From the IMG/VR virus record IMGVR_UViG_3300017971_000006, positions 114,560 through 178,559 of that record: 64,000 nt of DNA, one strand, 5' to 3'. A program made the position numbers and the translations under genes. A model generated the notes under the pieces. It had not been told where the DNA came from. It was given only the letters and a program-made list of their open reading frames with translations, and searched no databases. Origin of the DNA: a virus. Each line of letters begins with the position of its first letter. The stretch's first letter is position 1. Shown piece after piece: positions 12,417-61,006 of the stretch.

Positions 12417-12441
12417 GCCCGAGGGATACAGGCATATGCGA

Positions 12442-12471
12442 ATGAAAGGCCGCCCTCGGGTGGCCTTTCAT
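12442..12471 (+). terminator. Intrinsic terminator after the tail operon
   Basis: ATGAAAGGCC at 12442-12451 pairs perfectly with GGCCTTTCAT at 12462-12471, and the loop bases extend the stem. It is followed by CGTTT, a short U-tract. It separates the tail operon from the tRNA cluster that begins seven bases further on, and could also shape the 5' end of the first tRNA precursor. Confidence 0.7.
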
Positions 12472-12477
12472 CGTTTA

Positions 12478-12559
12478 GGACGGTGCATACAGTCTTGGAG
12501 ACTGGGCTGGCTGTAACCCAGCTGCTGTGAGGCGCGTGGTTCGATTCCATCACTGTCCA
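12478..12559 (+). tRNA. tRNA-Tyr (anticodon GTA)
   Basis: The acceptor GGACGGT pairs with ACTGTCC (one G-U). The anticodon arm GCTGG-CTGTAAC-CCAGC presents GTA. There is a long variable region typical of bacterial tRNA-Tyr, and a T-loop TTCGATT. The D arm is AGTC-TTGGA-GACT with an unusually short five-base loop keeping GG. The T-stem has one mismatch. CCA is not encoded. Identity is secure from the anticodon arm; the reduced D-arm is shared with the tRNA-Trp candidate downstream. Confidence 0.7.
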
Positions 12560-12560
12560 C

Positions 12561-12648
12561 CGGGTCTAGCCGCTTGCACGGCGGTGAAGGTAAGTCCAGC
12601 GGAGCTGGCTCCCAAGCATTACCCATCGATGGCGGGTACCCGGACCCG
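12561..12648 (+). ncRNA. tRNA-like folded element without a canonical T-arm
   Basis: CGGGTCT at 12561 pairs with GGACCCG at 12642-12648, closing an 88-base element. Inside are GCCGC-TTGCACG-GCGGT (5-bp stem, 7-base loop), CCAGC-GGA-GCTGG nested in GGTAA/TTACC, and a palindromic CGGGTACCCG. It is the size of a type II tRNA and lies in the tRNA cluster, but I cannot place D, anticodon and T arms in the correct order. It may be a decayed tRNA or another structured RNA. Confidence 0.4.
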
Positions 12649-12678
12649 AAGGCTGTCCACGGCAAACAGGTCTGGGGT

Positions 12679-12755
12679 GGAGTAGGTTCCTGGTCCTGTA
12701 CTCAAAACCAGGGTTTTACTACTCCCCAAAGGGCCAAAATGGCACTTTGGGGTAG
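12679..12755 (+). ncRNA. Minihelix-like element with CCA and a competing hairpin
   Basis: GGAGTAG (12679-12685) pairs with CTACTCC (12719-12725), which is followed directly by CCA. The enclosed arm is CCTGGT/ACCAGG (12689-12694 and 12707-12712). This looks like an acceptor stem on a single arm, only 50 bases long. The 3' strand can pair instead with the following bases: CCCCAAAG (12724-12731) with CTTTGGGG (12745-12752). The two folds exclude each other. The role is unknown; a processing signal for the next tRNA or a degenerate tRNA are possibilities. Confidence 0.35.
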
Positions 12756-12757
12756 CA

Positions 12758-12828
12758 CTGGGCATAGCCCATGGTGGGCACTCAGGCTCCAAACCTGAAG
12801 AAGGGGGTTCGATTCCCTCATACTCAGC
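12758..12828 (+). tRNA. tRNA-Trp (anticodon CCA)
   Basis: The anticodon arm TCAGG-CTCCAAA-CCTGA presents CCA. The D arm is GCCC-ATGGT-GGGC with a five-base loop, preceded by the usual T8-A9. The T arm is GGGGG-TTCGATT-CCCTC. The acceptor CTGGGCA/TACTCAG has one mismatch and one G-U and requires one extra base beside the T-stem, so the 3' end is approximate. The identity from the anticodon arm is clear; the body is somewhat degenerate. Confidence 0.6.
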
Positions 12829-12835
12829 TGCCTTA

Positions 12836-12915
12836 GGGATGTGCTAGGGCCGGTAGACGACGCACAACAGAATTCATGATGTCTATCGTCCGGGTTCGAT
12901 GCCCGGAGCATCCCA
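12836..12915 (+). tRNA. tRNA-like gene, possibly tRNA-Met (CAT), poor anticodon stem
   Basis: The acceptor GGGATGT/GCATCCC and a very good T arm (CCGGG-TTCGATG-CCCGG) are present. Counting back from the T-stem places CAT in the anticodon position, but its flanks do not form a stem. Instead CGGTAGAC (12851-12858) pairs over 8 bp with GTCTATCG (12881-12888), leaving a 22-base loop. It is either a tRNA with an unorthodox fold or a decayed one. Confidence 0.45.
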
Positions 12916-12922
12916 AGGTTTT

Positions 12923-12998
12923 GCCGGGGTAGCCCAACGGCAGAGGCAGCTGGCTTAGAACCAGCTCAGTGCAAGTTCGACTCTTGTTCCCGGTACCA
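12923..12998 (+). tRNA. tRNA-Leu (anticodon TAG), short variable loop, CCA encoded
   Basis: The acceptor GCCGGGG pairs with TCCCGGT (two wobbles) and is followed by A and encoded CCA. T8-A9, D-stem GCC/GGC with GG in the loop, anticodon arm GCTGG-CTTAGAA-CCAGC giving TAG, a five-base variable loop, and T arm GCAAG-TTCGACT-CTTGT are all present. The anticodon reads CTA, a codon used heavily in this window. Bacterial tRNA-Leu normally has a long variable arm, so this short-armed body is unusual. Confidence 0.85.
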
Positions 12999-13072
12999 GC
13001 CAAGCTAGCCCAAAAGGCAGAGGAGGCCGCCTCAAAAGCGGTATGCTGCGAGTTCGACCCTATCGCTGGGCA
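12999..13072 (+). tRNA. tRNA-Leu (anticodon CAA), weak T-stem
   Basis: It begins directly after the CCA of the preceding tRNA and shares its TAGCCCAA...GGCAGAGG core, so the two look like a tandem duplication. The anticodon arm GCCGC-CTCAAAA-GCGGT gives CAA, which reads TTG. The acceptor GCCAAGC/GCTGGGC has one mismatch, and the T-stem pairs at only three of five positions around a good TTCGACC loop. The variable loop is again short. Confidence 0.6.
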
Positions 13073-13081
13073 CATCGATTG

Positions 13082-13624
13082 TCACTCGAACATTGGAGTC
13101 GGCTTAGGCGAAGACGCGGTAGGCTTGGGGGCTACAGCAGGAGGTCTACGGACAGGGTGCCTCAGGGGAGCTTTGCTGCTCACCGTTACGGTCACAGTAA
13201 CGGTAGGGGGCGGCGGCGGTAGGTCCCTGCTCGTTAGGTAAGCCGGGTGGCTGTGGCTCTTAGCCACTTGTCCCCGCTGTATCTCGTCTAGCTTCCTTGC
13301 AGATTGGTAGTACAGAAGGGCGGTCAGGAAAAGGTTTGCCAAAACGAAGAGGCACACGGCAATTGTCACTGTGTGTGCCCTACGTGTAAGGTCACGCGCC
13401 AGAACAACCATCTTGGCGTTAACCTCCTGCGACCTTCGTATCTCGTCCGTAACCTCTAAGGATACGTGACACACCTCGTCAAAGGCGGCAGCCAGCTTAG
13501 CCATGGGCTCAGACCAGTAGCTTGCTTTGCTGGTGGCGGCGAGCTGGATGTTAGAGCTGACGGCCCTAACTCTCCTTCGCGCATTCTCCGTCTTGCTCTC
13601 CTCTTTGCCTGGCCTCTTCTCCAT
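13082..13624 (-). CDS. Single-pass membrane protein with Pro/Thr/Val-rich tail
   Basis: A 180-residue protein; AGGAG lies seven bases before the ATG at 13624. The N-terminal half is basic and helical. A transmembrane helix lies at about residues 86-106 (TVTIAVCLFVLANLFLTALLYY). The C-terminus is low complexity: a Pro run, TVTVTVTV, then Pro/Ala/Lys repeats. It is the last gene of a four-gene minus operon (14461 to 13082) of membrane and coiled-coil proteins, overlaps the preceding one by 59 bases and converges on the tRNA cluster. Family unknown; a lysis or superinfection-exclusion role is speculation. Confidence 0.7.
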   Translation of the reverse strand: MEKRPGKEESKTENARRRVRAVSSNIQLAATSKASYWSEPMAKLAAAFDEVCHVSLEVTDEIRRSQEVNAKMVVLARDLTRRAHTVTIAVCLFVLANLFLTALLYYQSARKLDEIQRGQVAKSHSHPAYLTSRDLPPPPPTVTVTVTVSSKAPLRHPVRRPPAVAPKPTASSPKPTPMFE

Positions 13625-13811
13625 CGAGTATCTCCTGCGCAGCCTGGGCGCCCTGCTTCCTGGCCTTACGTATAGCCCCCTCCAGTCTATCCAGGTTATT
13701 GTTAATCTCGTCGTTCGCCTCCCCTAGCTTGTCCCAAGCGTCATGCAGCCTCTTCTCCTCAGGCGTTACTTTGCTCAGCTCCCCAAATAGGAGGTAGATG
13801 AAGCTCTTCAT
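13566..13811 (-). CDS. Small helical protein in the membrane-protein operon
   Basis: 81 residues from the ATG at 13811; a GTG lies one codon earlier, but GGAGGA is correctly spaced for the ATG. A short hydrophobic start (FIYLLF) is followed by a charged helix with heptad-like spacing (LHDAWDKLGEANDEINNNLD). The start overlaps the previous stop (TGATG), so translation is coupled. The 3' part overlaps the next gene by 59 bases. No recognised family. Confidence 0.65.
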   Translation of the reverse strand: MKSFIYLLFGELSKVTPEEKRLHDAWDKLGEANDEINNNLDRLEGAIRKARKQGAQAAQEILDGEEARQRGEQDGECAKES

Positions 13812-14173
13812 CACTCCTCCGTGTAGATTCTGTGTCCCGACTCTAGTGGGGGCCTAGAGGAGTCAATAAGGGGTCTAGTGGACGGGGACCTATGCTCCAG
13901 GCGGAGCTCCATCACCTCTCGCGCCAACAGCTCGTTTGACCTACGTAGCTCTGCTAGCCCCTTAGCTACGCTCTGGTTGGCGTGTGTATTGTTTGTTATG
14001 GCCTCGCGGAGCTTGTCTGTATGCATAGTGAGCTTGTCAGCGTTCTCCTTAAGGTATGTGTCGTGCTTATCCTGAACAGCAATAAGTCTTCTCCATATTA
14101 GGGTTAGCGCGCAGAACAGAACTCCTACTAGGGGGACGGTCTTGATGAGCTCTACGGCTAGCTTCTCCTCCAT
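13811..14173 (-). CDS. Membrane-anchored coiled-coil protein
   Basis: 120 residues; AAGGAGG sits upstream and the ATG follows the previous stop directly. A transmembrane segment spans about residues 8-27 (ELIKTVPLVGVLFCALTLIW). It is followed by a long coiled coil to about residue 92 with repeated charged/Leu positions, then a Ser/Pro-rich tail. This topology is also seen in inner spanins and in XhlA-like or holin-accessory proteins. Together with its neighbours it forms a cassette of four membrane/coiled-coil proteins. Function not assigned. Confidence 0.65.
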   Translation of the reverse strand: MEEKLAVELIKTVPLVGVLFCALTLIWRRLIAVQDKHDTYLKENADKLTMHTDKLREAITNNTHANQSVAKGLAELRRSNELLAREVMELRLEHRSPSTRPLIDSSRPPLESGHRIYTEE

Positions 14174-14461
14174 CTAGTCCTCCTTCTTGCCGCTCCTGCG
14201 GGATGTCTCGCTCTGCCAGTTGGGCCATCGGTCGTGCAGGTCCTTAAGCGAGGTACGGAGAAGACCGGCTCCTACCGACCAAAGTCTTACTGCAGCGTCT
14301 ACGACAGCAGCTAGCAGGGCTTGTCGCCTGCGCAAGACCTCTATCTCTTGGATGAGGGCGCGCATGTCGTTCGTCGTCTGGGAGTAGACCCCTAGGGAGG
14401 CTGCTCTGTTGTCTGTCTCTTTGAGGCGCTCCTTGATGGCCTCCAGCTCCTCGTCCTTCAT
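14174..14461 (-). CDS. Helical protein with one hydrophobic segment, first of a four-gene operon
   Basis: 95 residues. An N-terminal charged helix (residues 1-45) precedes a hydrophobic, Ala/Val-rich stretch (about 48-68, ALLAAVVDAAVRLWSVGAGLL), which may be a membrane helix, and a basic tail. There is no SD before the ATG at 14461. TACACT lies six bases upstream as a possible -10 element, so the message may be nearly leaderless like other units in this region. The downstream genes of the operon do have SD sites. Family unknown. Confidence 0.6.
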   Translation of the reverse strand: MKDEELEAIKERLKETDNRAASLGVYSQTTNDMRALIQEIEVLRRRQALLAAVVDAAVRLWSVGAGLLRTSLKDLHDRWPNWQSETSRRSGKKED

Positions 14462-14502: not shown

Positions 14503-14574
14503 CTAAAAAGGACCATGAGGTCCGTGCTGGTAGGGCTGTTGCGCCCATGGTTTAACGTCTCACAGCTTAGACGT
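14503..14574 (-). terminator. Structured 3' UTR and U-tract terminator of the 14592-14885 unit
   Basis: Read on the minus strand, a hairpin ACGTCT/AGACGT (14555-14574) with AAGCTGTG in its loop is followed by GTTAAACC. Then GGACC-TCAT-GGTCC (14510-14523) ends in TTTTTAGC. The first hairpin and GTTAA are conserved in two other units (near 14985 and 16378); the terminator and its TTTTTAG run recur near 14935. Confidence 0.75.
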
Positions 14575-14591
14575 GGGACTTGAGAGCTCCC

Positions 14592-14885
14592 TTACTCATC
14601 ATCCTTCTTCCTACGCCGGGGTCTGGAGTACTCCCAGCCGCATGAGCAGAAGTACCCGACTCGGTAGTCGTCGTTGTAGCTTCTGTTCCCCATGCGGCCA
14701 TGGGGCTCGACATAGTACTCCCGCCAGTAGTATTTTCCGTCTACCGACTTGTACTGTGTGTCGAATATTACCCCGGAGCACTTATGGCACTCCGGGCACT
14801 CTGGACCCGCGACGCAGTCCCATTCATGACTGAATGGGTTGCGCCTCTCACTGAGGCACACGCTGCAGTCGCGGTTGTATTTCAT
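14592..14885 (-). CDS. Cysteine-rich small protein from a hairpin-tiled unit
   Basis: 97 residues with at least seven cysteines (CSVC, CPEC, HKC, CSC), suggesting zinc binding. There is no SD before the ATG at 14885; instead a CATAAG promoter element ends nine bases upstream. The coding sequence contains perfect inverted repeats: CCCCATG/CATGGGG (14688-14705), CCCATTCA/TGAATGGG (14819-14838) and CCCGGAG/CTCCGGG (14772-14796). The unit has its own promoter and terminator. Family not recognised. Confidence 0.65.
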   Translation of the reverse strand: MKYNRDCSVCLSERRNPFSHEWDCVAGPECPECHKCSGVIFDTQYKSVDGKYYWREYYVEPHGRMGNRSYNDDYRVGYFCSCGWEYSRPRRRKKDDE

Positions 14886-14894
14886 ACCATTACT

Positions 14895-14924
14895 CTTATG
14901 CTCGATTTTACGTATTATTTTACG
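14895..14924 (-). promoter_or_regulatory. Phage promoter copy: CGTAAA, 18 bases, CATAAG
   Basis: On the minus strand CGTAAA (14924-14919) is separated by exactly 18 bases from CATAAG (14900-14895), followed by AGTA. It matches five other copies in this window. The start codon lies nine bases after the -10-like hexamer and there is no SD, so the transcript is probably leaderless or nearly so. Confidence 0.7.
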
Positions 14925-14928
14925 GTAC

Positions 14929-15065
14929 TAAAAAGGACCATTAATGGTCCCGTGCCGAAGAGCTTGTGCGCTCTGCTTAACGTCCTTCAGCTGAGGACGA
15001 GGTTACACCATGTGCTTGCCAGACACATCGGTGTCTCCCCAGTGGCTTTGCCACGACCACTGGGG
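14929..15065 (-). terminator. Hairpin-rich 3' UTR and terminator of the 390-residue gene
   Basis: Between 15082 and 14929 the minus strand carries five hairpins in succession: CCCCAGTGG/CCACTGGGG (15037-15065), AGACAC/GTGTCT (15021-15036), CGTCCT/AGGACG (14981-14999), AGAGC/GCTCT (14959-14974) and GGACCA/TGGTCC (14935-14950), the last followed by TTTTTAG. The CGTCCT hairpin has AGCTG in the loop and is followed by GTTAA, as in two sister units. Confidence 0.75.
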
Positions 15066-15082
15066 AGGGAAGGGGCTGGCCT

Positions 15083-16255
15083 TTAGAGCTCAGCCAGCCC
15101 CTCCTCTATGTCTGCTTCGGCGGACCTCCCCGCCTTCTTCCCCACCCACTTTGGTATAGTGGGCTTCCGTGGGAGTCGTATCCAGCGAGGTGCGTCCTCC
15201 TGCGCCGCCTTATACAGCAGCTCTGCCACCTCGACATCCGGGAGGAGCCCCCGCAGGGCGCCGTGAGCGGAGACATACCTTTGCAGGCCCTCAAAGTACA
15301 GCACCCCTCCCATCTGCCCGGGAAAGTACTGCAGCTCCGCCCCTGCTAGGAGAAGGTCCCTAGCCTGGGCCCTAGAGTCTGCGTACTCTCGGGCACTGGC
15401 GCGGTTCTCCTCCTTCTCCCTCTGGCGGAGGGCCTTACCCTCCTCCACGGAGAACACCTGGAGCTCCAAGGTCCTGAAGGGCATCAGGGAGGTGCAGTAC
15501 TCCATGGTCACTACCGGTACTCGGTGGAGGCACAATGTCCGCTCCCTGTAAGGGGACGACCAGTCCCCTTTTGCCCTGTCCTGGATGAACCATCCGGGCA
15601 TCCCCTCAATCGATCCCCAGGGTAGCCTGGAGAACCGATTGCCGAGAACGGCAACCTCCTCCCTATCGTACCTCCCGGGACGCAGGGCGCGCAGAGCCCC
15701 TATTACCTCCTCGACGGGAGGGAACTCGAACTCTACGCTCACCCAGTCACACCCTTCTCGCTGGTAGGCGTTCCATCCATCGAGTAGGGCTATGTGCCCG
15801 GAGCCCGCTTGGGCTCCCCCCACCAGTCGCCTCCCCCTACCCTCTGGGAGGGTCTCGGCCCAAGCCATTACGGCCCGGGCAACCTCATCACTCGGGGGAT
15901 AGTTTTGGATGGATACCCGGATTTCGTTCAGGTAATCCTTCACCGCTCCCATAGGGGGGAGCGGGGAGGTCGGGGATTCCCACGTGGTGTCGATACGGGG
16001 TGGGAAGTACCCGTCGTTGTACTCCCACCCCTCCGGGAGGAGGGCAGGAACCACCTCCTCCCTCCCCTCCATCAACGCGTCCACAATGAGGAGGAGATTT
16101 TCAATCTCCTCCTCATCCCTTACGTCCCCAACCACCTCGAGGACCCTTCGGTCCTCCTCCCCCTCCCGGCGGTCGACTACCACCGGGGTGTTGATTATGG
16201 TTGCGGTTGTGCTGATGGTGGTGATGGTGGTGATGTTGGAAGTGATGTTCGACAT
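15083..16255 (-). CDS. 390-residue protein of unknown function, hairpin-tiled gene
   Basis: The N-terminus is a Thr/Ile/Asn low-complexity stretch (SNITSNITTITTISTT); the rest is acidic and globular. There is no strong SD before the ATG; the promoter copy lies about 60 bases upstream. The coding sequence holds striking perfect palindromes: ATGAGGAGGAGATT/AATCTCCTCCTCAT (16086-16116, 14 bp, 3-base loop), GAGGACC/GGTCCTC (16139-16156), GGAGCCC/GGGCTCC (15800-15817) and AAGGGGAC/GTCCCCTT (15550-15570). No domain recognised. A start further in cannot be excluded. Confidence 0.6.
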   Translation of the reverse strand: MSNITSNITTITTISTTATIINTPVVVDRREGEEDRRVLEVVGDVRDEEEIENLLLIVDALMEGREEVVPALLPEGWEYNDGYFPPRIDTTWESPTSPLPPMGAVKDYLNEIRVSIQNYPPSDEVARAVMAWAETLPEGRGRRLVGGAQAGSGHIALLDGWNAYQREGCDWVSVEFEFPPVEEVIGALRALRPGRYDREEVAVLGNRFSRLPWGSIEGMPGWFIQDRAKGDWSSPYRERTLCLHRVPVVTMEYCTSLMPFRTLELQVFSVEEGKALRQREKEENRASAREYADSRAQARDLLLAGAELQYFPGQMGGVLYFEGLQRYVSAHGALRGLLPDVEVAELLYKAAQEDAPRWIRLPRKPTIPKWVGKKAGRSAEADIEEGLAEL

Positions 16256-16316
16256 TTTCTTGAACCACTAGAGCAGCGCACAACCTTTGCACGTGTCTGT
16301 GGTCTCCTTCACTATT

Positions 16317-16347
16317 CTTATTACCTATTCTTGAGCGTACTTTTAAG
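16317..16347 (-). promoter_or_regulatory. Phage promoter copy: CTTAAAA, 18 bases, AATAAG
   Basis: Minus-strand CTTAAAA (16347-16341), then AATAAG (16322-16317) followed by AATA. Spacing is 18-19 bases. Unlike the leaderless copies, about 60 bases separate it from the ATG at 16255. The leader contains GAAGGAG at 16304-16310 that is not near any long frame. Confidence 0.6.
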
Positions 16348-16348
16348 G

Positions 16349-16400
16349 AGCTAAGAAAAGCTGGTTTAACGTCTCAGCTTGGACGGGGCGCTCTCATAGG
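16349..16400 (-). terminator. 3' UTR element and terminator of the 16.4-17.1 kb unit
   Basis: On the minus strand, CCCGTC-CAAGCTGA-GACG (around 16370-16386) is followed by GTTAAACC, matching the conserved 3' UTR box of the two sister units. It then runs into AGCTTTTCTTAGCT (16349-16362), a weak hairpin with a pyrimidine run. It separates the structured RNA/ORF unit from the promoter of the 390-residue gene. Confidence 0.55.
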
Positions 16401-16416
16401 GGAGCTCCCATTACCC

Positions 16417-16641
16417 TTACCTGCATACGAGTGGCTCGTGCCCTTCAGCAGGAGCTGCCCCGCAGAGGGGGCAGACGTACCATGGGCCGAATAGTCGGAC
16501 CCAGTGGTCCGACTCACACTCGCAGGCCGGTGTTAGCTCCCCACGCGGGAGGCGTGGGGGGTTGCTGGGTACTATGTGGTACCCAGCAATCAGTCCGAGC
16601 TCGGAGAGCTCGGACTGAGTCATGCCTTTTGTCTTATACAT
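16417..16641 (-). CDS. Possible zinc-ribbon ORF within a continuously hairpin-tiled stretch
   Basis: A 74-codon frame with CECESDHW and CPLCG, a credible zinc ribbon. The same 190 bases are tiled by six inverted repeats: 16427-16439, 16455-16474, 16494-16513 (GTCGGACC/GGTCCGAC), 16539-16559 (CCCCACGC/GCGTGGGG), 16564-16587 (GCTGGGTAC/GTACCCAGC) and 16591-16617 (12 bp). It follows the ncRNA without a gap and has no clear SD; the internal ATG at 16623 is another possible start. It may be a real gene, or the 3' part of the structured RNA. Confidence 0.45.
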   Translation of the reverse strand: MYKTKGMTQSELSELGLIAGYHIVPSNPPRLPRGELTPACECESDHWVRLFGPWYVCPLCGAAPAEGHEPLVCR

Positions 16642-16642
16642 A

Positions 16643-17130
16643 GAGGCTGTTTCGGGACTCGAACCCGCTGGGGCCTATAACCCACAGCCCTACACTTCCT
16701 CCTGACGCCCCGAGAGACACCATTAGCGGAGGGTGTAGCGCGGCGAATCTGACTGCACCGCGAGAGGCCGAAGGCCCAACGTGGCGGTGCTGTCAGAGTC
16801 GTTGCGTGTCCCTTTGCATGTGGCCTCATTGTGAAGAGGAGACCTGCCATGAGCCGTACCCTACCTTTAAGGGACTGGTAGGAGCCCATGCGAGAGGTTA
16901 ATCCGCGGCGGTACACCGCAGCCTCTCTTAAGATAAGCAGCGCAGAGCTCCGGGAAGCTCCGTGCTCAGGCTTTTGCGGATGCTGTTGGTCACCGGCCCA
17001 GCATCCAGCCTACCGAGAGTACCTCGGTAAAAAACACTAACCACCGGGCGCCACTCCGATGGCGGGAGACTGCTCTCCCTGACCAGAGGGCTTTAACTCT
17101 GGTCGGCACCTGAGATGTATCTTCCATCTC
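16643..17130 (-). ncRNA. Long structured RNA with tRNA-like 3' end
   Basis: Downstream of a promoter copy, the minus strand forms hairpin after hairpin: 17112-17130, 17081-17104 (GACCAGAG/CTCTGGTC), 17064-17079, 17011-17029, 16978-17006 (GGATGCTG/CAGCATCC), 16945-16960, 16849-16889, 16755-16790 (GCACCGC/GCGGTGC with GGCC-GGCC inside) and 16690-16738. The 3' end has a T-arm CGGG-TTCGAGT-CCCG. CAGCCTC just after it pairs perfectly with GAGGCTG 283 nt upstream (16919-16925). Closing a long insert by an acceptor-like stem beside a T-arm recalls tmRNA, but no tag reading frame is visible. ORFs in this stretch are judged spurious. Confidence 0.6.
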
Positions 17131-17136
17131 GTTATT

Positions 17137-17166
17137 CTTATGCTTTATTTCATGACGAACTTTCAC
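17137..17166 (-). promoter_or_regulatory. Phage promoter copy: GTGAAA, 18 bases, CATAAG
   Basis: Minus-strand GTGAAA (17166-17161), 18 bases, CATAAG (17142-17137), then AATA. It drives the structured RNA; no start codon follows at the leaderless position. It lies back-to-back with the plus-strand helicase-fusion gene, whose start is 53 bases away. Confidence 0.7.
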
Positions 17167-17218: not shown

Positions 17219-19804
17219 ATGTCTGAGAAGGTCGCGGCAATACGCCATGAGCTAAAGCCCCATCAGCGCAAGGTAGTAGAGCGTATGAAGGAGCAGCCAG
17301 GGCTGGTAGTGGCTCATGGGCTAGGCTCTGGTAAGACCCTCAGCTCTATTGCTGCACAGGATGCGTTAGGTCTTCCTTCTACTGTGGTCGTGCCCGCCTC
17401 CTTGAAGGCGAACTACGAGAAGGAGCGAGAGAAGCACATAGAAGGCACCTCCCCCGAGGCGGCTATTACTACTCTGCAGCGTGTAGCAAGAGCAGGCGAG
17501 GTGATAGATGCGCCCATGCTGATTGTAGATGAGGCGCACAGAGCAAGAGAGGTGGACTCTAAGACCTATCAAGCGCTTAAGAGGAACCTCTCAGATAAGC
17601 GTATGCTCCTCACGGCGAGCCCATTTTATAATAGGCCAAGTGACATAGCTCCTCTGATAAACATTGCCGCGGGGGAGCGTGTCCTCCCCCCAGACCAGAA
17701 GAGCTTTGAGCAGAGGTACGTGAAGGAGACGCGCATCAATCCTTCCTTGTGGCAGCGTATCCGTGGGGCCAAGCCTGGGACGGTGCAGGAGCTTAACCCG
17801 AGACAGGCCAACGAGCTCAAGAAGGTGATGCGTACGTGGGTAGACTACCACCCTGGCACGAAGGCCGACTTCCCAGACGTGAGGAGGGAGGTGGTGAAGG
17901 TTCCCATGACCGCCAAACAGCGCAAGCTGTACGATGGGGTAATAGGACAAGCCCCTCCGTGGGTAGCGCTCAAGATAAAGGCGGGTCTCCCCCCCTCCAA
18001 GCAGGAGTCCAAGCAGCTTAACGCGTTTGCCTCTGCTGTACGGCAGATATCTCTCTCCACGAGGGCGCATGCGCCAAAGGAGCCCCCCCAAGAGCCCAAG
18101 GTTGATACAGCGTTCAAACGTATGAAGGCTAAGCTAGAGGGCAACCCCAGGTTTAAGGGGGTGGTCTACTCAAACTATCTGGATGCTGGGGTACGCCCGT
18201 ACAAGGAGAGGCTTGAGCAGGCGGGCATCCCCTACGGGGAGTTCACCGGGGCCATGCCCAAGAAGGAGCGTGACCAGCTGGTTCGAGACTACAATGAAGG
18301 GAATAAGAGGGTTCTACTGCTTAGCTCAGCAGGCGGTGAGGGGCTAGACCTCAAGGGCACCAGGCTGCTCCAGGTGCTAGAGCCACACTGGAACACAGAG
18401 AAGCTGAAGCAGGTGGAAGGCCGAGGCATTAGGTACAGAAGCCATACGCACCTACCCAAGAAGGAACGAAACATCACAGTAGAGAGCTACCTTGCCACAA
18501 GACCAAAGGCAGGGTTGCTGGAGAAGCTGAAGATAACAAAGCCCGGCGGGGGCATAGATGAGTACCTGACGGCACACGCCCAACGTAAAGAGAAGCTGAT
18601 AGGGCAGTTTAGAGGGCTAATGGATAGCAAAGAGAAAAGAGCAGAGGTCTGGTCTCCTACAGCGCTCCACAGGTGGCGTGGGTTCGTAGGAGAGCTAGAC
18701 AAGATTGCGCAGGACGGTAGAGCAAAGAAGAAGGTATACTTTCAAGGGCTCACTGTGCACATAGACCGCCCAAAGGGGTTCGTCATGGAGGGCGTAGACG
18801 AGGGGGGTACACCGTGGAAGCGCGTGTACAAGACAGACTACGGCTACCTCAAAGGTGCTAATGGAGGAGACGGGGATAGCCTTGATGTGTTCGTAGGCCC
18901 GAGCAAAGGCTCTACAAGGACATTCTGGGCTAGGCAGGTAAAGCCGGACGGTACGTTCGATGAGTACAAGGTGTTTGTCGGCTATGACAACAAGAGTGAC
19001 GCACTACAGGCATATAAGGAGCACATACCCCCTAAGCTATTAAGCAGCATGTTTGAGGTTGGCCTTGACGTCGTTAAGGCTCTTTTGGGTGTAGACCCGG
19101 AGGGCACAGCAAAGACGGCGGAAAAGGGGGACGACACTGCAGCCCTGCTGGAGGGTATCTTGGCCCACCATCAACAGGGTCAGGCTCTGGAGAGAGCTGC
19201 CGGCGCGGCAGAGCAGATGAAGGAGCGCAGGAGGCGGCAGCAGCTGTACGGTTTGGCTGGTGCTGGCTTAGGCTTTGGTGCAGGTCTCGGTGCCCGTGCT
19301 CTTGGAGGAAAGCATCTCCTGGCGCAAGCGGCACCTCTCGTTGGAGTGCTGGGAGGAAGCACAGTAGGCACCCTTCTCGCCAACCAGAGAAGTGGAGGAG
19401 CTCCGCGAGACAGTGCGAAGGAGGTACGTCGTCAGCTTCTTCGGGTCAAGGACCTTCAGGGGAGGGTGGAACGTGCCAGGGAGCTAGGGATGGAGGTGAA
19501 GCAGGCTGCGGTGCAGGAGAAGACGGCCAAGGTGCAGGTGATGGGGAAGGAGGATTACTACCCTACCGCGTTCAAGGTGCAGGCTAACGAGCAAAGAGCA
19601 ATCATGAAGGCGATGAAGGGCTCTGGGATGCGGATGGCGGGAGGCGGTCCCTTGTCGTCCGGATGGTCTGTGGGGCCAGGTGGTCCCGTAGCTCCTAGAG
19701 CTTCTATAGGTAACCCGTATCCTACATTCGGGAGCGCCATGAGTGCTGCAGGAGGCATCTCTCCTCAGACAATATCAGCGCTCAGCGCGTATGGTCTTGT
19801 GTGA
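17219..19804 (+). CDS. SNF2-like SF2 helicase fused to a pyrophosphatase-like domain
   Basis: 861 residues. The helicase core has Walker A GLGSGKT (about residue 35), DEAH (about 103), TASPF (about 131), and motifs V-VI with EGLDL and QVEGRGIRYRSH (about 365-408). Near residues 500-605 lies an InPase-like domain (DYGYLKG, GDGDSLDVFVGP). In known families this domain is found inside phage polyvalent proteins. A Gly/Ala-rich, possibly membrane-active segment follows (residues 675-720). The SD is weak (GAGG, very close to the ATG). It leads an otherwise structural operon, so the protein may be packaged and injected. That role is inference. Confidence 0.8.
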   Translation: MSEKVAAIRHELKPHQRKVVERMKEQPGLVVAHGLGSGKTLSSIAAQDALGLPSTVVVPASLKANYEKEREKHIEGTSPEAAITTLQRVARAGEVIDAPMLIVDEAHRAREVDSKTYQALKRNLSDKRMLLTASPFYNRPSDIAPLINIAAGERVLPPDQKSFEQRYVKETRINPSLWQRIRGAKPGTVQELNPRQANELKKVMRTWVDYHPGTKADFPDVRREVVKVPMTAKQRKLYDGVIGQAPPWVALKIKAGLPPSKQESKQLNAFASAVRQISLSTRAHAPKEPPQEPKVDTAFKRMKAKLEGNPRFKGVVYSNYLDAGVRPYKERLEQAGIPYGEFTGAMPKKERDQLVRDYNEGNKRVLLLSSAGGEGLDLKGTRLLQVLEPHWNTEKLKQVEGRGIRYRSHTHLPKKERNITVESYLATRPKAGLLEKLKITKPGGGIDEYLTAHAQRKEKLIGQFRGLMDSKEKRAEVWSPTALHRWRGFVGELDKIAQDGRAKKKVYFQGLTVHIDRPKGFVMEGVDEGGTPWKRVYKTDYGYLKGANGGDGDSLDVFVGPSKGSTRTFWARQVKPDGTFDEYKVFVGYDNKSDALQAYKEHIPPKLLSSMFEVGLDVVKALLGVDPEGTAKTAEKGDDTAALLEGILAHHQQGQALERAAGAAEQMKERRRRQQLYGLAGAGLGFGAGLGARALGGKHLLAQAAPLVGVLGGSTVGTLLANQRSGGAPRDSAKEVRRQLLRVKDLQGRVERARELGMEVKQAAVQEKTAKVQVMGKEDYYPTAFKVQANEQRAIMKAMKGSGMRMAGGGPLSSGWSVGPGGPVAPRASIGNPYPTFGSAMSAAGGISPQTISALSAYGLV

Positions 19805-44916: not shown

Positions 44917-45189
44917 CGTGTACATCCTGAGTTTCCCCAGGCACTGACTATACCTTCACTCTTCTAACCCGCCACCCGCATACGCCTGCGGGATTTGGTA
45001 AGAGTGCCTGCCGTGTCAACAGAAGCATGGGGAGTGACTACCCTGCGCTAGGCCCTTCTGTTGAGGGGGCGTCGGCCCCCAAGTCGATACACTGCCCATG
45101 ACGCTAGGCAGCACGGGATTGCCGTAGGCGTTACGCCCGTAGGTTTCCCCGTTTTGAGCAGGTTTTACTTCGGCCTGACTGGCTGGTTG
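44917..45189 (-). ncRNA. Group I self-splicing intron in the DNA polymerase gene
   Basis: 273 nt without its own ORF. The 5' exon end CTTCGGT pairs with GCCGAAG shortly inside the intron (P1), with the required U-G at the splice site. The core contains AAACGGGGAAACC and CAATCCCGTGCT, closely matching the P4-P6 core of phage group I introns such as T4 td, and the 3' part contains AAGGTATAGTC typical of P7. The intron ends in G. The insertion point is the highly conserved polymerase motif B. Confidence 0.9.
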
Positions 45190-46695
45190 ACCGAAGCCGA
45201 TATTCTTAACATCGTTTCTATACCCTAAGCACTCAACCATGTACTCGGTTAGCGCGCTCTCCTCTAGCTCCTTCGCATCGACCGCCTTTCTTGTCTTCTT
45301 TGCCAGGACGATATCATCGTACGGGACCCCGTACATGAGAGACGCATTGCCCATGTGGATGTCCCAGTTCCTATGAAAGACACCCTGCATGTCTGGGTCG
45401 TTAGCGGCACATGCCAGAAGGCGCATCTCTAGCTGCTTGTAGTCGACAACTATTAAGGTGTAGCCCTCTCTGGCGATGAACACACTTCGTATTCTCCATC
45501 GGGTGTCCTTCTCTGGGTTTGGGATATTTTGAAGGTTTGGCTCTTTTGAGGACAACCTGCCGGTCCTCGCTATGTCCTGATTATAGGTGGTGTGTATGCG
45601 GTCTCTAGCATCAACGTACCTGCCAATGCCGACGATGTACGTTTTGTACATCTTCGCAAAGTCTCGGTAGTCGAGGATAGCCCCCGCCAGCTCCCTAGCC
45701 TCTCGCGGGTAGTTACCCTCAGCGATGCGCTGAAGAACCTCGGCGTCGGTCGAGGCTTTGGGCTCTCCCTTCTTGCCTCCTTTAGTCTTCTTCAGAGGTT
45801 TAAGGCCGAAGTTGCCCCGCTCCTTAGGTCCAAAGAACTTCTCCCGAAGCTGGTCAGGACTGTCTGTAGACAGCTTCCTTCCCGCTAACCTCCACACCTC
45901 CCTCTCTGCGTTATCAAGTCCCTTCTTTATGGTGGGAGAGATGTCGTTGACACGCTCCATGTCAATTTTGATACCGACTCTCTCCTGGTCCCACAGAACC
46001 CTGGTGTAGACGGCCTCTACTCTAGCGAAGTAGTCCCAAAGAGTGACTATGTACGGCCACGTGTCTGGATACAGGCTGTACGTCAGCTCTTTCTCCAGCA
46101 TCTTCTTTAGGATGTAGTACAGCTCCATGGTGCCCCACGCATCCAGACAAGCGTACTCAACAAGAAGAGGCATGTCCTGCACCTCTGCGCGGCGTATTAC
46201 GTCCTCGGCAGTTACTCCTTTCTTCTTTGATATCTTACCGAAGGTGTTCTGAAAGTCTGTCCACTTGTTGCCAAGCAGATCATTGGCCATGTCCTTTAGC
46301 TTGTGGCTCTCCTCCGCGAACAGAAGAGCATGCATGACCTGTATGCAGTGAACCTTTCCCTGGATAGGTGTGCCGTAGTTAGCCAGCATGTGCATGTCGA
46401 ATTTGGCGTTTGCCAACAGCCATGTCTTGCTGGTGTCCGCTAGGACGTGCTTGAAGTGCGGGAGTGTCGAGGCGTGCAGCGCTACACGCTCCTTACCCCA
46501 CGATACAGACCAGTACAGAGGATAGTCAGACACGTTGCTAAGACCTGTGGTCTCTGTGTCTATAGCTATCATCTTCTGGTCCTCGAGAGCGCGTACGACG
46601 CTCTCTATGCTTGCCGTCTCTACGGTATCCGGCGCTGCGGGCCCTACACCTTGGACATACTTAGAGACGGGTACGTCAATGTTCCAGCGTGCCAT
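45190..46695 (-). CDS. polA: Family A DNA polymerase, 5' exon (exonuclease domain and palm)
   Basis: 502 codons. Exonuclease motifs: IAIDTETTGL (about 45), NAKFDMHML (about 98) and YACLDAWGTMELY (about 178). Polymerase motif A is VVDYKQLEMRLLA (about 420). Motif B begins DVKNIGFG and is completed after splicing. This is a T7/Pol I-type replicative polymerase with proofreading. The unspliced frame would add 57 meaningless residues. There is no SD before the ATG; a terminator hairpin abuts it. Confidence 0.9.
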
Positions 46696-59764: not shown

Positions 59765-59767
59765 TAG

Positions 59768-59931
59768 CTAAAAGAGAGCGTGAGCTCTCCTACTGCCTTG
59801 ACCATGGGCCTCCTAATCTGGGAGGTCATCCCCAGATGCCTGCGGTCTCGCTGAGGGCATTAATCCTCAGTCCCCGCTCAAGCCTGGCACGGCCTACCAG
59901 GTTTGCGCCTGGCTCGTTGATGGCTTGTCCT
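59768..59931 (-). terminator. Structured 3' UTR and terminator of the 60.2 kb unit
   Basis: Minus strand: several hairpins including CTGAGG/CCTCAG (around 59853-59872) and alternative CCTGG/CCAGG pairings (around 59885-59912), ending with GAGAGC-TCAC-GCTCTC (59774-59789) followed by TTTTAGC. It also lies opposite the end of the portal gene and may terminate it. Layout matches the units near 14-16 kb. Confidence 0.65.
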
Positions 59932-60228
59932 CTACCACGGGTAGTACCACCCTCCGAAGAGGGTGGTGCCAAACGCCGGTAGCTCATTGACCCCGCTTAC
60001 GTGGTCCATGAGCTCCCGAGTGGTGGCCGCGTCGAGGTCGACCATCCAGTTCGGCCAATAGCCGGATTGGATAGTCGCTGCGACGTCAGCCACCAGTGGG
60101 TGGCAACCGCTGTCCTCCCGGTATCGGAAGGACAGCTCCCCGTGGTGAACCAACCCGTCGTAGTACGGGTTGGTGAGGACAACCTCAGCTGCCTCTCTCA
60201 AGAGAGGAGACTGGAAGGCGTTCTCCAT
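59932..60228 (-). CDS. Small protein from a hairpin-tiled unit
   Basis: 98 residues starting MENAFQSPLLREAAEVVL; ATG at 60228 lies seven bases after the promoter's TATAAG, with no SD, so translation is probably leaderless. The coding sequence contains ACCAACCCGT/ACGGGTTGGT (60149-60174), ACCACCCTC/GAGGGTGGT with a UUCG loop on the transcript (59946-59967), and CTGTCCT...AGGACAG (60110-60135). Trp/Tyr-rich C-terminus. Unknown function. Confidence 0.65.
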   Translation of the reverse strand: MENAFQSPLLREAAEVVLTNPYYDGLVHHGELSFRYREDSGCHPLVADVAATIQSGYWPNWMVDLDAATTRELMDHVSGVNELPAFGTTLFGGWYYPW

Positions 60229-60235
60229 CATTACT

Positions 60236-60265
60236 CTTATACCTGTATTATAGAGGTAATTTCAG
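60236..60265 (-). promoter_or_regulatory. Phage promoter copy: CTGAAA, 18 bases, TATAAG
   Basis: Minus strand CTGAAA (60265-60260), 18 bases, TATAAG (60241-60236), then AGTA. The start codon ATG of the 98-residue gene follows seven bases after TATAAG. Confidence 0.75.
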
Positions 60266-60269
60266 GGGC

Positions 60270-60297
60270 TAAAAGAAGCTCACATGGGAGAGCTTCT
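60270..60297 (-). terminator. Terminator of the 60.7 kb unit
   Basis: AGAAGCTC/GAGCTTCT (60274-60297) with a TTTTAG run on the minus strand. A near-identical hairpin with the same stem ends the next unit upstream, so the pair is a dispersed terminator repeat. Confidence 0.8.
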
Positions 60298-60309
60298 AGG
60301 TAATTCCTG

Positions 60310-60675
60310 TTACGGGATAGCTGCGAGCAGCACTTTCAGCTCATCCAACGTCACTCCCCAGTGACGGAGGCGCCCATGTACCTCGACCCCGTCCTTGTTC
60401 AGGATCAGAGACGATCTGCTGTAGTTACTAGGGTCATACATGCGTAGGAGGCCATCTTCGACCTCCCACTTAAGATTCCATCCCGAGAACCTAGAGCACC
60501 GAGCTGTGATGCTCTCTACAGTTACTGTTGGCAGCAGCTCACGAAAGTAAGCTGCTGTCACCATGTTAGTGATACCATCCTCATACTTTATGAGGACAGT
60601 ATCACGCCCCTCTCGGGCCTCCACCACCTCTGTGGTGGAGTCCCACTCCGTTATCGTGTAGAACCTGCTTTTCAT
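60310..60675 (-). CDS. Small protein from a hairpin-tiled unit
   Basis: 121 residues from the ATG at 60675, seven bases after the promoter's GATAAG. The coding sequence carries nested palindromes GTGATAC/GTATCAC and TCCTCAT/ATGAGGA (60569-60605), CTCCACCAC/GTGGTGGAG (60619-60640) and CAGCAGCT/AGCTGCTG (60532-60557). α/β composition with an ITEWDSTTEVVEAR start. Unknown family. Confidence 0.65.
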   Translation of the reverse strand: MKSRFYTITEWDSTTEVVEAREGRDTVLIKYEDGITNMVTAAYFRELLPTVTVESITARCSRFSGWNLKWEVEDGLLRMYDPSNYSRSSLILNKDGVEVHGRLRHWGVTLDELKVLLAAIP

Positions 60676-60682
60676 CAATACT

Positions 60683-60711
60683 CTTATCCCCGTTTTATAG
60701 AGATAATTTAG
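60683..60711 (-). promoter_or_regulatory. Phage promoter copy: CTAAA, 18 bases, GATAAG
   Basis: Minus strand CTAAA (60711-60707), 18 bases, GATAAG (60688-60683), then AGTA; ATG follows seven bases after the hexamer. One of six matching copies. Confidence 0.75.
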
Positions 60712-60716
60712 GGGGC

Positions 60717-60744
60717 TAAAAGAAGCTCGTGTGGGAGAGCTTCT
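60717..60744 (-). terminator. Terminator of the 60.97 kb unit
   Basis: AGAAGCTC/GAGCTTCT (60721-60744) with a TTTAG run on the minus strand; near-identical stem to the terminator at 60270-60297. Confidence 0.8.
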
Positions 60745-60753
60745 AGTAATCCC

Positions 60754-60969
60754 TTAGGTGTACTCGACCTTATCGAGCTCTTGGAGTACCTCCAAGAGCA
60801 CCTTCTGGTCCTCTTGGTGGTACTCCCCCTCCCCATAATAGGGGAGGAGTTCGTACGGAAACAGGTTCTCTTCGAGAAGGCGAATAATCACCCTCTGTGA
60901 GAGGTGTTCTCTGTTTTGAAGGTTTTCTTCGAGGATGGCCGAGTGGATTGCATCTATTAATTGTTCCAT
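60754..60969 (-). CDS. Small acidic helical protein from a hairpin-tiled unit
   Basis: 71 residues starting MEQLIDAIHSAILEENLQN; ATG at 60969 is seven bases after TATAAG, with no SD. The coding sequence carries CTTGGAG/CTCCAAG (60780-60796) and CCTCCCC/GGGGAGG (60828-60847). Helical, Glu/Leu-rich. Function unknown. Confidence 0.65.
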   Translation of the reverse strand: MEQLIDAIHSAILEENLQNREHLSQRVIIRLLEENLFPYELLPYYGEGEYHQEDQKVLLEVLQELDKVEYT

Positions 60970-60976
60970 CAGTATT

Positions 60977-61006
60977 CTTATACTGTGGTTTCCCTTTTAT
61001 TTTCAC
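60977..61006 (-). promoter_or_regulatory. Phage promoter copy: GTGAAA, 18 bases, TATAAG
   Basis: Minus strand GTGAAA (61006-61001), 18 bases, TATAAG (60982-60977), then AATA. Its -35-like part overlaps the stop codon of the upstream 169-residue gene. Confidence 0.75.

Follow-up and report, generated by a model that had tools for sequence, protein, structure and literature searches.

We found nine minus-strand units in the genome of an uncultured double-stranded DNA phage in which a promoter-like motif, ATAAGARTA, lies near the start codon, short hairpins run throughout the coding and non-coding parts, and the end is mostly formed by a hairpin/CTTTT(T)AG terminator. The association between this motif and the dense tiling with hairpins is the most solid new point of our analysis, and the distribution of stems supports the conclusion that tiling tracks the promoter-like signal, not genome region or gene age. 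Because the tiled genes have one such signal in common, their folding seems tied to the way in which they are switched on or used.

The window, meaning the whole 64,000-nucleotide stretch analyzed, comprises bases 114560-178559 of a 178,559-base IMG/VR phage record; positions refer to the window unless marked as genome positions. The phage is one of several large phages (most of the group's records span 165-210 kb) that carry a fused beta-beta' RNA polymerase gene and have Salmonella phage Arash and three Vibrio phages as distant kin. In this genome the polymerase (2476 aa) is encoded outside the window, at genome 2019-9449 (L013:2019-9449), and the gene was present in 17/17 relatives searched. 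It carries a LAGLIDADG-containing insert at residues about 786-1119, probably an intein, that is absent at the same place in most relatives; some have similar inserts elsewhere. On the plus strand, 12440-13075 holds clustered tRNAs (Trp, Leu, Leu) and additional tRNA-like sequences, including a tRNA-Sec candidate below cut-off (12479-12557); relatives L004 and L012 lack the stretch in which these lie.

Local perfect stems distinguish the tiled genes

Counting perfect stems with loops of 3-12 nt against 60 dinucleotide shuffles, we detected 18, 12 and 7 stems of at least 7, 8 and 9 bp in 14592-17130 (island 1), compared with shuffle means of 1.55, 0.37 and 0.10 and shuffle maxima of 6, 3 and 1. 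The hairpins named in a preliminary description of this region are all present, several of them longer than claimed: 14 bp with a 3-nt loop at 16086-16116, 13 bp at 16590-16618, 11 bp at 16562-16589 and 9 bp at 16493-16514, with 8 bp each at 16539-16559, 15550-15570 and 14819-14838. The tiling also extends beyond the 14592-17130 given there: island 2, at 59765-60980, contains 9 stems of at least 8 bp versus 0.2 in shuffles, and weaker tiled units occur at genome positions of about 1.3-1.9 kb and 39.7-40.2 kb; genome-wide, 5/7 of the 1-kb bins with at least 3 stems of at least 8 bp fall in the two islands.

The claim that neighboring genes are untiled holds where stems are counted. The adjacent helicase gene (17219-19804, plus strand) has 1, 0 and 0 stems of at least 7, 8 and 9 bp, and four minus-strand ORFs next to island 1 (13082-14461), which serve as an internal control, are untiled. 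This helicase is of the SNF2 type and is fused to a PF18823 'InPase' domain, with a domain order and fusion that differ in L004 and L012.

Folding energy gives a less clear-cut separation. In codon-preserving shuffles (200 per ORF), stems of at least 7 bp were in excess in 7/7 window ORFs tested (p <= 0.015). Energies relative to codon shuffles were -5.4 to -18.7 kcal/mol per 100 nt in 10 tiled ORFs versus -1.66 +/- 1.9 in 70 genes from the rest of the genome (Mann-Whitney p = 5e-7), so the comparison proposed in the preliminary description does set the tiled ORFs apart. Under a stricter null that keeps both codons and dinucleotides, however, the 390-aa gene of island 1 (z -3.6) is among the strongest but has company, including a 559-aa gene at 45016-46695 (z -4.2). 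Because other genes match it, energy z-scores alone would not single out the 390-aa gene; what separates the tiled genes is how densely local perfect stems are packed. We also observed a second tier of moderately to strongly folded small minus-strand genes (L017:4650-6000, genome about 84.5-86 kb), with sense z of about -6 and no exact ATAAGARTA.

A promoter-like motif heads the tiled units

The 9-mer ATAAGARTA has exactly 8 copies in the 178.6-kb genome, where 1.5 are expected on both strands. All 8 are on the minus strand, intergenic and closely upstream of a small ORF, in a genome of which called genes cover 89%. Six copies lie in the window (60981, 60687, 60240, 17141, 16321 and 14899) and two outside it (genome 1943 and 39899), and a one-base variant, ATAAGATTA, heads a ninth unit near genome 40.2 kb, whose short ORF starts with a 10-bp and an 8-bp stem. 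A-rich elements precede most sites by 5-20 bases, and a hairpin plus CTTTT(T)AG terminator lies before several of them. The motif thus behaves as a promoter class would, being enriched, confined to one strand, placed before start codons and kept across the clade.

Stems of at least 8 bp reach 5.6 per kb in motif genes, compared with 0.65 in other minus-strand ORFans, 0.26 in plus-strand ORFans, 0.29-0.39 in genes with homologues in relatives and 1.78 in intergenic DNA. When about 216 genes were ranked by hairpin coverage without regard to the motif, 9 of the top 10 belonged to motif units. The unit at genome 39.9 kb showed no over-folding in the dinucleotide test, and the start regions of tiled genes showed no clear extra openness relative to controls.

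Table 1. Features of the two hairpin-tiled islands (window coordinates)
Feature	Position	Strand	Details
Island 1			
Promoter-like motif ATAAGAATA before unit A	17133-17141 (within 17125..17141)	minus	exact ATAAGARTA
Unit A first ORF, 44 aa from ATG	16990..17125	minus	7-8 bp stems 17011-17029, 17081-17104
Unit A non-coding structured stretch, about 350 nt	16642..16992	minus	bulged and branched hairpins, T-arm-like end GGGTTCGAGTCCCG
Unit A 74-aa Cys-rich ORF	16417..16641	minus	stems 16590-16618, 16562-16589, 16539-16559, 16493-16514
Unit A 3' end, terminator-like	16350..16381	minus	AAGCTG..CAGCTT hairpin and TTCTTAG
Promoter-like motif ATAAGAATA before unit B	16313..16321	minus	exact ATAAGARTA
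Unit B 390-aa ORF, tiled	15083..16255	minus	stems 16086-16116 (14 bp), 16035-16062, 15943-15964, 15550-15570, others
Unit B 3' UTR	14924..15082	minus	stems 15035-15067, 15071-15102; CGTCC..GGACGTTAA stem-loop; terminator GGACC..GGTCC-TTTTTAG
Promoter-like motif ATAAGAGTA before unit C	14891..14899	minus	exact ATAAGARTA
Unit C 97-aa Cys-rich ORF	14592..14885	minus	stems 14819-14838, 14772-14796, 14688-14705
Unit C 3' UTR	14505..14591	minus	ACGTC..GACGTTAA stem-loop; GGGC..GCCC hairpin; terminator GGACC..GGTCC-TTTTTAG
Island 2			
Promoter-like motif ATAAGAATA	60973..60981	minus	exact ATAAGARTA
71-aa tiled ORF	60754..60969	minus	stem 60777-60799, 10 bp
Promoter-like motif ATAAGAGTA	60679..60687	minus	exact ATAAGARTA
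122-aa tiled ORF	60310..60678	minus	stem 60619-60640, 9 bp; sense z -7.1 vs codon shuffles
Promoter-like motif ATAAGAGTA	60232..60240	minus	exact ATAAGARTA
99-aa tiled ORF	59932..60231	minus	stems 59946-59967, 60149-60174
Terminator-like hairpin GAGAGCTCACGCTCTC-TTTTAG, end of second island	59768..59790	minus	hairpin followed by TTTTAG

Coding and non-coding parts of the units

The 390-aa ORF is clearly coding, with a coding score of 166 in frame and negative scores in the other frames. The score of the 44-aa ORF is neutral, leaving its status as a protein uncertain. Between this ORF and the 74-aa ORF, the non-coding stretch of unit A folds with z of -3.2 in the sense and -2.8 in the antisense direction. 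The 74-aa ORF has 53% of its bases in stem-loops, the highest hairpin coverage among the genome's ORFs. At 16640-16692 on the minus strand, the T-arm-like GGGTTCGAGTCCCG is followed by AAACAGCC, which could pair with an upstream GGCTGT; this element looks like a tRNA stripped down to its acceptor and T arm and drew no ARAGORN or Rfam call. Three minus-strand 3' UTRs (14520-14590, 14960-15005 and 16350-16390) have in common a stem-loop followed by GACGTTAA. These stem-loops vary yet stay paired (ACGTC-loop-GACGT, CGTCC-loop-GGACG) and may form a shared 3' element. In island 2, hairpins similar to GAGAGCTCACGCTCTC-TTTTAG occur one each at about 60270-60298 and 60716-60745.

IMG/VR searches with five tiled proteins found no homologue, nor did searches of GTDB genomes, INPHARED and 17 relatives with the 390-aa protein, and the tiled proteins had no confident match in Pfam, PHROGs or PADLOC. 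An AlphaFold2 model of the 390-aa protein made without an alignment was unusable (pLDDT 38). In an Rfam scan of the window only plus-strand tRNAs reached the cut-off, and the tiled region yielded nothing credible at E up to 5.

The link between motif and folding extends to relatives

ATAAGARTA also precedes genes in several relatives, where A-rich elements again lie before it and a Shine-Dalgarno sequence often follows directly. In every case checked for orientation, the motif and the portal gene were on opposite strands. This recurrence identifies it as an element of the clade and not an oddity of one phage; a search of IMG/VR with a strict promoter pattern returned no match. In the 300 nt after the motif, relatives are over-folded by a frame-free measure (-3.64 versus -1.85 kcal/mol per 100 nt at other gene starts, p = 0.007), and the same measure gives -10.7 kcal/mol per 100 nt in the phage studied here. 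A codon-based version in the relatives agrees (p = 0.003-0.005); its ORFs were chosen by a mechanical rule, and some of them, L158:14316-14831 for one, seem to be in the wrong frame, so we rely on the frame-free test. The link between motif and folding is therefore clade-wide, mild in relatives and extreme in this phage. Records of six other near-complete relatives contained no cluster of at least 4 stems per kb.

Particles of Salmonella phage Arash contain RNA polymerase subunits (PMC10585845). By analogy with these and with AR9-type early promoters (PMC5312081), we infer that ATAAGARTA marks a gene class found across the clade and probably early, as its promoter element or as a sequence that includes the 5' end.

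Signatures of RNA selection and of DNA mutation

Tiled ORFs are more over-folded in the sense strand than in its complement (sense minus antisense, -2.1 versus +0.67 in controls, p = 0.004), which is what RNA selection predicts. Other signatures are weaker. In non-overlapping stems with arms of at least 8, G-U pairs outnumber A-C pairs 82 to 52 (p = 0.012), a difference that is not significant for arms of at least 7 or at least 9, and G-U and A-C interruptions inside long stems were too few for comparison. Stem register shows only a mild preference by codon position (16:7:3).

In simulations, stems were planted in control genes either by copying, as in template switching, or by synonymous change only, and the genes were then codon-shuffled. 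Real tiled genes retained 13.5, 4.9 and 1.4 stems of at least 6, 7 and 8 bp, compared with 9.1, 3.4 and 1.3 after simulated template switching and 7.1, 2.3 and 0.65 after simulated synonymous selection, although tiled genes are also more GC-rich, which inflates the number of stems left. More stems thus survive than synonymous tuning would leave, indicating that the amino-acid sequences take part in the palindromes, as in EEEI-E-NLLL at 16086-16116. The preliminary description attributed the hairpins to codon choice bent to keep RNA structure. This view accounts for an excess that survives protein-preserving shuffles but is incomplete, since silent codon choice does not by itself account for palindromes that extend into the proteins. 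Either selection on the RNA prevails over amino-acid identity as well, or the palindromes were made by template switching in the DNA. Template switching predicts palindromic amino acids, and so does RNA selection acting on proteins that tolerate change.

The further suggestion that the mRNA itself is under selection is partly supported. The codon-shuffle excess, the sense bias, the link to the motif and its weaker counterpart in relatives argue for it, whereas the G-U test is significant at one cut-off. Selection on mRNA is the best-supported reading, short of proven.

Possible origins of the tiling

We tentatively propose, at a little under an even chance, that the tiled genes are a co-regulated set of one promoter class under selection for locally double-stranded mRNA, probably for RNA persistence. 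The ATAAGARTA class would be read by the phage or host polymerase, and selection would favor locally double-stranded mRNA within it. The most likely cause is that a run of short hairpins exposes little unpaired RNA to endonucleases, which may lengthen the lives of the mRNAs, while ribosomes could still melt such short structures. The tiled proteins, which appear to evolve fast, may tolerate amino-acid change, in which case the RNA constraint would shape codons and amino acids alike. We count against this reading that many stems are perfect and, at 13-14 bp, longer than stability would need. Also against it are the cut-off dependence of the G-U test, the stems that persist after codon shuffling, the lack of dense clusters in six relatives, the 39.9-kb unit without over-folding, and start regions that are not clearly more open than those of controls. 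It is conceivable, if somewhat doubtful, that RNA shape is what defines the class as a regulon: consecutive hairpins along the whole mRNA would mark the genes of one promoter class and give unrelated proteins a common transcript-level property, either a longer life or protection against nucleases of host or phage or against RNA-targeting defence.

Long perfect arms are also what would be expected if mutation writes the palindromes, with template switching at imperfect inverted repeats perfecting the arms, heavy transcription promoting the process, and RNA structure arising as a by-product that is tolerated because ORFan proteins are weakly constrained. RNA hairpins can be created and maintained by template switching (PMC8794818), and in yeast without RNase H2 transcription promotes quasi-palindrome mutations (PMC3820800); these findings make a transcription-linked mutational origin a serious rival, even if we consider it rather unlikely. 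Palindromy that reaches the protein, with a post-shuffle stem signal at least equal to that of simulated switching, fits this origin, as does a genome-wide density of stems of at least 8 bp (0.61/kb) that exceeds the 0.20-0.38/kb of seven relatives, one with equal GC. Mutation alone, however, predicts no dependence on gene class beyond constraint and does not explain why other ORFans are untiled, nor does it readily accommodate an energy asymmetry favoring the sense strand or promoter-linked over-folding in other phages.

The non-coding parts of unit A raise the question of whether the transcripts are mainly structured RNAs, acting as protein-binding scaffolds or as decoys that occupy RNA sensors or nucleases of the host, with the short ORFs secondary. 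The structured stretch at 16642-16992 with its T-arm-like end, a 74-aa ORF that is over half stem-loop, and the lack of coding signal in the two shortest ORFs would suit such a role, but the coding signal in the 390-aa, 99-aa and 122-aa ORFs and the absence of an Rfam family match make it improbable. We regard as more improbable still that the tiled units are a foreign module from a phage group in which all genes are tiled, bringing its own promoters and terminators. The island 1 stretch is indeed missing between the same neighbor genes in L004 and L012, and the tiled genes have no homologue in the relatives compared; yet the promoter-like motif is native to this phage's clade, the 390-aa gene matches the phage's own hexamer usage, and the units are scattered over four places.

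Relationship to known systems

To our knowledge, selection on whole-mRNA structure has so far been mainly an RNA-virus phenomenon. Hairpin-tiled coding sequences in one phage promoter class would tie transcription class to mRNA structure, and would offer a natural test of RNA selection against transcription-linked template switching as the source of that structure.

Among phages, Arash ('Arashvirus', PMC10585845) has homologous portal and RNA polymerase proteins and a similar genome size, though its proteins are only about 32-33% identical to those here. ATAAGARTA resembles the early promoters of AR9, AAATATATATTAT-6N-G (PMC5312081), in being an AT-rich, clade-specific element near the unit start in a phage that encodes a multisubunit polymerase, but its sequence differs. 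Hairpins made by template switching (PMC8794818) likewise have perfect stems and are a plausible source of the arms; no restriction to one promoter class is described for that process, in contrast to the tiling reported here. Perfect inverted repeats in protein genes, with both arms coding, are also found in the mitochondria of Nematomorpha (PMC6649704), where palindromes of up to 284 bp occur in conserved genes, whereas those in this phage are 7-14 bp, dense, and located in ORFans behind a promoter-like signal. The genome-scale ordered RNA structure (GORS) of positive-strand RNA viruses (PMC3695492) is similar in that folding exceeds codon-preserving controls across coding sequences, as we found in 10 ORFs. 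A notable distinction is that here, in a dsDNA phage, the structure consists of short, local tandem hairpins and is not genome-wide, being found in only one promoter class (5.6 stems per kb versus 0.26-0.65 in other classes).
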